Source of the DNA: Endomicrobium sp.
GTDB lineage: Bacteria > Elusimicrobiota > Endomicrobiia > Endomicrobiales > Endomicrobiaceae
Direction of reading: 5' to 3'
DNA length: 37,673 nt
Assembly: GCA_031286985.1 (NCBI GenBank)
Contig: JAITTL010000029.1
Location: 1 to 37,673 of the forward strand
A model generated the notes under the pieces. The model did not search any database. It worked only from the letters and a program-made list of their open reading frames with translations, and had not been told where the DNA came from. Shown one piece after another: positions 35,961 through 37,673 of the stretch. Within the stretch, counting starts at the first letter, position 1; every line of letters starts with the position of its first letter. A program made the position numbers and the translations under genes.

Positions 35961-36390
35961 AATCCCAAAATTCAAATTGTAAATATTCTAGTATTGCACT
36001 AACATCTTGAAAGGACTTTGGCGTAACATATATTTATGATATGTGTTGTTTTGGAAGTGTGATATATGCAGTGTCCTGATCTGATAAACAGTGACAACAA
36101 AGCATCATCAATTCCTGGTTGCTTACCATATTTATTTCGTGAAGCTGTATGTTTTACCACTTTATTCCATTAAGCTCTAAACTTCTTTACTACTTGAAAT
36201 GTACAAATCGTAGATGAAAAAATAAAAAGAATCACGAAATAAATACATTTGAGATCTTTTTTTACTTTACGAGAATGGGAACGTCTGTAACTGACCCTAA
36301 CGATCTATTTTGCCTTTAACAGCATTTTTGCTAGAATCAGTGCGCTTTGAAATCAGAGAGCTCATCGGTTTTGTAAACTAGGGAGGAAGT
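35961..36390. other. Non-coding gap before the CDPS-kinase fusion gene
   Basis: About 430 bases. On the minus strand there is an open frame of 56 codons (36169 down to 35999) containing KHTASRNKYGKQPGIDDALL, with GTG 36160 as the only start and no recognisable family; it may be a remnant. The right end holds the promoter at 36310-36337 and the gene's ribosome site. No tRNA, transposon end or terminator hairpin was found. Confidence 0.4.
36310..36337 (+). promoter_or_regulatory. Promoter of the CDPS-PAS-kinase gene (extended -10)
   Basis: TTGCCT (36310-36315), 16 bases, TAGAAT (36332-36337) preceded by TGC, an extended -10 element. It lies about 55 bases before ATG 36391. Confidence 0.6.
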
Positions 36391-37673
36391 ATGTCAACTG
36401 ATAGACTTGTCAAGTGGAGCAAAGAATCTGCTGAATTTTTTGAAAAAGCAGAAGATAGCAGTGTGGTTTTGGATTTAGTTATATCCTATGCCTGCGCCAG
36501 CCAAACAGGTGAAGGATTTGAAGAATTAGTTAATACAATAAATAGTGAGAAAATAAAAAGGAAAGTAAAGAAAGTTATCATAACAGATGCTTCATATTTG
36601 TATAGACATGTCAACCTTGAGTTTTCTAGATATGCAGATCCTTCCCTACCAACAGATTGGTATTTGAAGAATAAGGGTGCAATTGAAAAGCTGAAATGTC
36701 CTTATGAAATTAAATCATGGGTTACAGGACTTGTGGGAAATGGTTTTGGAGACAGGTATAGACAAGTAAAGCAAGATTTTTTCACTGATTCAAATTTTAA
36801 GGATGCGGTTATATCGCTGGCGATGGAATTTACAGCAAAAAAGTTTTATGACAGCGACGTTGGTAGGAACATAGATTTTATATTAGAAGAGACAGCGTAC
36901 ACAGCTGAAAATCTCAGAGGAGCTAACATTGTTTATCCTACAGGAGTTTCCCCACATCTAGGCATTGCTATCAAAAAATATAACTTTGGCGCAGGATTTT
37001 TATCTTATAAGGCGTCTAATTGTGCTCGAAAACGTATGTTTGTCGAGAAACAAATGCAGATAAAGGAAGAAGAGAACCATAAGCTTGATATTGAAGCCAT
37101 TGATAAAGAAGTGTTGTTTTTTATAAAAGAAAAAGTTTCAAATGTCAATTTTTTTGTTGTGGATAAGTATGATAACCACATATATAGGAATTATAGTTTA
37201 AATAGAATTATTGGTATTAAAGCAACCGCAAAAGAGGCAGGGCCCGAAGTTTGGAAGAATAACAGGCGTGTGATTGAAGAAGGGAAGCCAATGATGGTTG
37301 AAGAAAATTCACCGGAAGGATATACCTTTCTATCTGTAAAATATCCACTGGTTATAAATGGAAAAGTAGAGGGAGTAATAGGATTAGCTGTAGACATAAC
37401 GGACAAAAAAAAGAGAGAAGAACTACAAAAGAAATTAGAGATCCAAGAAGAGCTTTATAGGATAGCCAAGAAGGTGGCGCATGACATCAATTCACCCATC
37501 TCGGCTTTGAAGATAGTTGCATATATGTCTGCAAATAAGTTAACAGAGAAAGAGAAGAGGATGTTGGAGATGAGTATAACAAGCATTGAAAGTATAGCTG
37601 AAACATTACTAGGAGAGTACAAAACAATAAAGAGAGCAGAACAAGGTGAGATTGTTGAAGTTGTTGATCGGAG
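36391..37673 (+). CDS. Cyclodipeptide-synthase-like domain fused to PAS-like and histidine-kinase domains (partial, runs off the window)
   Basis: 427 residues visible, no stop before the edge. GGGAGGA gives a strong ribosome site. Residues ~25-215 follow the tRNA-dependent cyclodipeptide synthase pattern: VIS with Ser32 in the nucleophile position, GEGF, TDASYLYRHVN (65-75), a DWYLKN segment (89-94), RYRQVKQDFFTDSNF, FILEE (163-167) and VYP (Tyr182-Pro183), the last being the XYP-subfamily signature. Glu167 matches AlbC Glu182, but Phe163 replaces the usual Tyr178. Residues ~235-340 look like a PAS sensor domain (FFVVDKYDNHIYRN ... VIGLAVDITDKKKREE), followed by a coiled linker and a HisKA helix with phospho-acceptor His364 in VAHDINSPISALK. 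There are no membrane segments, so it is a cytosolic kinase. The ATPase domain must lie beyond the edge. Kinase assignment is strong; the CDPS assignment rests on motif recognition alone. Confidence 0.75.
   Translation, partial: MSTDRLVKWSKESAEFFEKAEDSSVVLDLVISYACASQTGEGFEELVNTINSEKIKRKVKKVIITDASYLYRHVNLEFSRYADPSLPTDWYLKNKGAIEKLKCPYEIKSWVTGLVGNGFGDRYRQVKQDFFTDSNFKDAVISLAMEFTAKKFYDSDVGRNIDFILEETAYTAENLRGANIVYPTGVSPHLGIAIKKYNFGAGFLSYKASNCARKRMFVEKQMQIKEEENHKLDIEAIDKEVLFFIKEKVSNVNFFVVDKYDNHIYRNYSLNRIIGIKATAKEAGPEVWKNNRRVIEEGKPMMVEENSPEGYTFLSVKYPLVINGKVEGVIGLAVDITDKKKREELQKKLEIQEELYRIAKKVAHDINSPISALKIVAYMSANKLTEKEKRMLEMSITSIESIAETLLGEYKTIKRAEQGEIVEVVDR

Follow-up and report, generated by a model that had tools for sequence, protein, structure and literature searches.

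A cyclodipeptide synthase-like fold as the first domain of a soluble PAS histidine kinase in Endomicrobiellum

Introduction

What is a domain resembling the cyclodipeptide synthases (CDPSs) doing at the front of a soluble histidine kinase? The question is raised by P0001, a gene cut off by the end of a contig from Endomicrobiellum (Elusimicrobiota), a genus of endosymbionts in termite-gut flagellates (PMC11257099). The window, i.e. the whole stretch of 37,673 nucleotides that was analysed, represents all of contig C32 of a 984-kb genome, which is divided into 34 contigs and is 95% complete. A first-pass annotation of this DNA had proposed, from a series of short motifs, a CDPS-like domain lying in the same frame as a PAS domain and a HisKA motif.

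Results

P0001 is an open frame of 427 amino acids covering positions 36391..37671 of the forward strand (to which all the features given below belong), with the ATG at 36391 and the contig end truncating it; the frame reads as a CDPS-fold domain followed by PAS and HisKA. A Shine-Dalgarno-like AGGGAGG (36380..36386), read directly, is located four bases 5' of the start codon. Judged by hydropathy, the protein has no transmembrane segment. The motifs named in the first-pass annotation were found in place, i.e. Ser32, TD..YLYRH at residues 65–73, DWYLKN at 89–94, FFTDSNF at 130–136, FILEE at 163–167, Tyr182-Pro183 and His364. Concerning the surroundings of the gene, its copy on contig C11 has about 50 bases of upstream sequence in common with the window copy; the idea of a shared mobile promoter was discarded, the upstream regions of the copies being generally dissimilar. 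A plasmid origin of P0001 was also discarded, since tblastn against plasmids gave one PAS match only, as was its continuation in another contig, because the final 200 bases have no matches apart from the window itself and two diverged paralogues.

Both the sequence comparison and the predicted structure indicate that residues 1–220 (36391..37050) share the fold of the CDPSs. A single-sequence search of the PDB with the P0001 domain already places CDPSs first (E=3e-4). The profile built from 14 aligned domains of this kind, designated A-type, retrieves five CDPS chains from the PDB with E-values from 1.2e-7 to 2.6e-5 (Rgry-CDPS at 1.2e-7, Fdum-CDPS at 3.4e-6 and the Nbra-CDPS entries at 1e-5 to 2.6e-5), the first non-CDPS match being unrelated, with an E-value of 0.026. 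The AlphaFold (AF2) model of the domain (pLDDT 87, pTM 0.84) gives Foldseek matches whose ranks 1–31 are all CDPSs, with E-values from 1.8e-9 and the best TM-scores of 0.70–0.72; a tyrosyl-tRNA synthetase appears after them. The resemblance seen from the motifs thus stands above chance on the PDB profile as well as on the predicted fold, and the outcome that the first-pass annotation had named as refuting it did not occur. The Pfam model PF16715, the search originally proposed for residues 1–220, matches neither P0001 nor any of the 14 aligned domains, so that P0001 as a true stand-alone CDPS in the sense of that model was discarded; used on its own, this test would have failed because the model misses the domain.

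The remainder of P0001 belongs to a histidine kinase. Residues ~240–340 (37108..37410) correspond to a PAS domain, matched weakly by PAS_4 in the window copy (E=0.003) and also matched in 7 of 9 relatives (best E-value 3.2e-8), although a profile of the PAS region found no convincing relative in the PDB. The dimerisation and phosphoacceptor domain HisKA covers residues 358–404 (37462..37602) with a Pfam score of 17.9 bits, which is below the gathering cut-off, and the alignment with relatives indicates His364 in VAHDINSP (37480..37482) as the predicted phosphoacceptor. The HATPase_c domain would fall past the contig end; it is present in the relatives L073, L078 and L079 (E-values 6e-14 to 6e-19). 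The frame of L079/L053 runs for 580 amino acids from the start codon to a contig end and has no receiver, L078 (699 amino acids) possesses the HATPase and one receiver-like region, and L073 (827 amino acids) the HATPase and two receiver regions; one of the latter two is detected by Pfam, whereas the second one and that of L078 were recognised by sequence only. The kinase half of L078 matches solved histidine kinases (E=8.5e-12). An error of sequencing or assembly as the origin of the fusion was discarded because the identical in-frame architecture occurs at different loci in several species, where the relatives read through from CDPS to PAS, HisKA and HATPase; the single frame proposed from the window therefore holds. 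On the fold, the in-frame fusion and the residue pattern described below, P0001 is best explained as the sensory half of a soluble histidine kinase, with a first domain derived from an XYP-type CDPS.

With regard to the active site, the residue equivalences were taken from the alignment to Rgry-CDPS and conservation was counted over the 14 aligned A-type domains. Ser32 (36484..36486), equivalent to the catalytic Ser (AlbC S37, Rgry-CDPS S29), is kept in 13/14, with Cys in one. Glu166 is kept in 14/14, and Glu167 (36889..36891), at the place of the catalytic Glu182, in 12/14, with Lys in two; Tyr182-Pro183 (36934..36939), the XYP signature corresponding to Tyr202-Pro203, is present throughout (14/14). 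The place of the catalytic Tyr178 (Rgry Y181) is occupied by Phe163 (36877..36879), Phe being found in all 14 domains and Tyr in one further copy beyond them (L075). Among active CDPSs, the quartet of Ser, Tyr, Glu and Tyr is conserved almost without exception (PMC7566563), and the substitution Y178F substantially impairs both the activity of AlbC and its acyl-enzyme formation (PMC5935735). The active-site residues are conserved above the average across the 14 domains, and P0001 retains 30 of the 31 positions that are invariant in the other 13. Near-invariant is also the basic stretch IKRKVKKV (residues 55–62; 36553..36576), with K56, K58 and K61 invariant. In XYP CDPSs the tRNA acceptor stem is held by the basic strands beta2 and beta7, to one of which the stretch might correspond; any mapping of the contact residues onto the A-type domain is of low confidence. 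The pocket is thus maintained, with the normal turnover of the A-type domain probably reduced, and the pattern weighs against cyclodipeptide production by the P0001 copy; the conservation of Ser and Tyr would equally fit an active enzyme. The A-type domain should not be classed as a CDPS enzyme.

Of 38 Endomicrobiellum genomes, 18 carry the A-type domain, and a search of 303 other Elusimicrobiota gave no copy; all relatives with named records are Candidatus Endomicrobiellum or Endomicrobium sp. The copies are dispersed, a single genome having as many as nine matched places, and many are broken or at contig ends. In the source genome, the ends of contigs C2, C11, C14, C17, C20, C24, C25, C29 and C32 lie in or near genes of these repeat families; short-read assembly therefore breaks at them and the copy number is probably underestimated. 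The whole domain is under purifying selection (dN/dS well below 1), with two parts evolving at different rates. Residues 1–72 (36391..36606) are highly conserved, dN being ~0.05–0.2 and dN/dS ~0.05–0.1 or less in most comparisons, with dS between species mostly ~1 to saturated; residues 73–215 (36607..37035) evolve faster (dN ~0.3–1.1), with ~0.3–0.8 in comparisons across species and values as high as 1.1 among paralogues. The lower dS at the gene start within a genome suggests some gene conversion there.

It should also be mentioned that PAS domains are abundant genus-wide in Endomicrobiellum. On contig C29 of the source genome (L009:572-1847), adjacent frames share a near-identical signal-like start (MNKIFKIILTCSYVLLHIGAAVG), one frame of this tandem family having TPR-like repeats.

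Kinases with PAS_4 in the same genome carry, on contigs C24 and C26, another N-terminal family, designated B-type, found in 16 Endomicrobiellum genomes but in no other sampled Elusimicrobiota; its members include L006 (C24:9802-11382), L007 (C26), L102 and L103. Sequence profiles link it weakly to the A-type, and the B-type profile found no CDPS in the PDB. The B-type model (pLDDT 92.6) is assigned by Foldseek to the CDPS fold (E=4.4e-9, TM up to 0.76), and Ser31, Tyr170 and Glu173/174 are kept in 10/10 sequences, with Tyr191 in 9/10. Judged from the model, the B-type is a second, divergent CDPS-fold family on the same kinase chassis and, given its residues, could be catalytically active.

True CDPSs recognised by PF16715 are present in 12 genomes of the genus, the six that were aligned keeping the full catalytic set. 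In 7/7 loci read with downstream sequence (L001, L080–L084 and L086), the gene directly downstream of the CDPS, in most cases overlapping it, encodes a soluble protein with one to three PAS domains; all of these genes that are of sufficient length to show it code for a kinase. The same kind of pair occurs on a plasmid of Legionella lytica (L120:5965-8719), where the two genes overlap by 14 bases and the kinase has the architecture PAS_4-HisKA-HATPase-REC-Hpt. According to a 2018 survey, PAS domains rank with the most frequent neighbours of CDPS genes outside biosynthesis, for which quorum sensing was proposed (PMC5767969). Since the pair is found in both Endomicrobiellum and the Legionella lytica plasmid, in addition to the neighbours from that survey, a functional link between CDPS and soluble PAS kinase seems to exist in at least two phyla. 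The fused forms may represent a later merging of the two genes; the tree of the kinase cores, built to see whether A-type, B-type and operon kinases interleave, leaves 8 of its 10 inner branches open and gives no proof of the order.

As for the state of the family in the source genome, the phosphoacceptor His is missing from four paralogues (one on C24, two on C26 and one on C33), all of which end before the HATPase, and broken remnants of HATPase or receiver were found 3' of the C24 copy, 3' of the second C26 copy and at C14. The signalling may thus be dying in this genome, and the window copy may be either live or in early decay, several paralogues here having lost their kinase half. In L004, L006, L007 and L008, the His is replaced by Glu or Ser and a helix of the dimerisation domain (SIANVKTIANTLLQ) is apparently repeated where the HATPase would be expected; these four are possibly pseudokinases or products of decay. 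No cognate response regulator, for which a search had been advised, was identified in the genome, the only two receivers found adjoining ordinary kinases.

Discussion

The reading preferred here, with a probability of roughly 0.45, is that a sensor domain derived from a CDPS and binding aminoacyl-tRNA drives the histidine kinase. The pocket would still bind aminoacyl-tRNA—or, more widely, an aminoacyl-tRNA or dipeptide-like ligand—or would slowly become aminoacylated on Ser32; the PAS linker would relay its occupancy to the dimerisation helices, altering the autophosphorylation of His364, the phosphate then passing to a receiver, which would often be within the same protein. The first third of the domain is nearly fixed and the remainder varies between paralogues, hence a shared part of the ligand (the acceptor end with the first amino acid) would be expected, with the rest being recognised in a paralogue-specific way. 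The reading is preferred because the pocket residues are kept and the catalytic Tyr is lost, because the basic stretch is near-invariant and because the amino-acid synthesis of these symbionts is patchy: Endomicrobiellum has lost amino-acid pathways here and there and has acquired new uptake systems (PMC11257099). That all 14 domains have Phe in the position of Tyr178 points to binding more than to turnover and, with Y178F crippling AlbC, favours a sensor over a proven producer of cyclodipeptides. In an endosymbiont relying on amino acids of its host, such kinases would report the supply of amino acids or charged tRNA.

An extended form of this reading, in which histidine kinases measure aminoacyl-tRNA directly by a captured CDPS domain, with the paralogues tuned to different amino acids, is rather doubtful; it would make them a bacterial counterpart of GCN2 based on a fold of the class Ic synthetase type. 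The eukaryotic GCN2 joins a HisRS (class II) fold to a Ser/Thr kinase and senses uncharged tRNA. Both thus have a synthetase-like domain and a kinase tied to amino-acid status, the likeness being a functional analogy and no homology.

Somewhat unlikely, although the best placed of the alternatives, is an autocrine switch, in which the fused CDPS domain would make a cyclodipeptide from two aminoacyl-tRNAs, the adjoining PAS domain bind the product and the kinase read it. The stand-alone CDPSs with S37, Y178, E182 and Y202 located just upstream of a soluble PAS kinase, in all seven loci and in Legionella lytica, speak for it, as do the residues Ser31, Tyr170, Glu174 and (in 9/10) Tyr191 of the B-type, for which above all this model of an enzyme plus its receptor remains open; in the A-type it is opposed by the replaced Tyr178 (14/14), the change known to impair AlbC, and by Lys in place of Glu182 in two domains. 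It is improbable that the degenerate pocket serves as the receptor for a ready-made cyclodipeptide, supplied by a stand-alone CDPS whose gene lies at another place in the genome. The fused family is present in 11 of the 12 Endomicrobiellum genomes that have a true CDPS (Fisher p=7e-5, 36 genomes), but with the comparison restricted to genomes of 0.95 Mb or more the association drops to p=0.05, genome size therefore explaining a part of it, and five genomes have the fusion with no detected CDPS. The window copy as a functionless fossil of an expanded and decaying kinase family is likewise given little credence. Frameshifts, stops or truncations affect many copies, the remnants at C24, C26 and C14 are broken, and genome erosion has been documented in Endomicrobiellum (PMC11257099); against this, the frame of P0001 stays open for 427 codons, with His364 and all but one of the otherwise invariant positions retained, and other species possess intact full-length forms.

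Compared with known systems, the A-type domain has its fold in common with the XYP-type CDPSs Rgry-CDPS (5MLP), Fdum-CDPS (5OCD) and Nbra-CDPS (5MLQ), at TM ~0.7, as well as the catalytic Ser and Glu, the Tyr-Pro signature and the TD..YL.RH region. It differs from them in having Phe for Tyr178, in being unseen by PF16715 and in its fusion to PAS and histidine kinase, the known XYP-type CDPSs being mostly stand-alone enzymes. The fusions known for true CDPSs, the only ones given in a 2018 overview, are those with P450, methyltransferase and ABC-transporter partners (PMC5816076); they also have the CDPS N-terminal to a second domain, but this is a tailoring enzyme or a transporter instead of a signalling kinase. 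The CDPSs with PAS neighbours (PMC5767969) and the Legionella lytica pair combine a CDPS with a soluble PAS kinase as the A-type does, yet as two genes acting in trans and with a true CDPS, while the A-type is one polypeptide with a degenerate one. Cytosolic PAS histidine kinases and hybrid kinases share the PAS-HisKA-HATPase(-REC) chassis with the A-type proteins, which differ from them in the CDPS-fold input. In the open-licence literature searched, no CDPS-kinase fusion has been described; the novelty initially claimed for the system is therefore upheld for the fusion itself, not for PAS neighbours of CDPSs or for other CDPS fusions, both of which are known.

P0001 can be described as a histidine kinase whose input domain is of a new type. 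The PAS domains found here contradict a 2023 survey that counts Endomicrobia among the groups without them (PMC10468136). If the proposed reading is true, the fold of a tRNA-dependent enzyme would join the input domains of two-component systems, and the phosphorelays of intracellular symbionts would be linked directly to the status of amino acids or charged tRNA. The CDPS and PAS kinase pair, together with the fused versions in the same genomes, gives a testable home to the idea that the products of CDPSs are signals. The symbionts of termite-gut protists carry many copies of the kinase, which may let them gauge their amino-acid supply.
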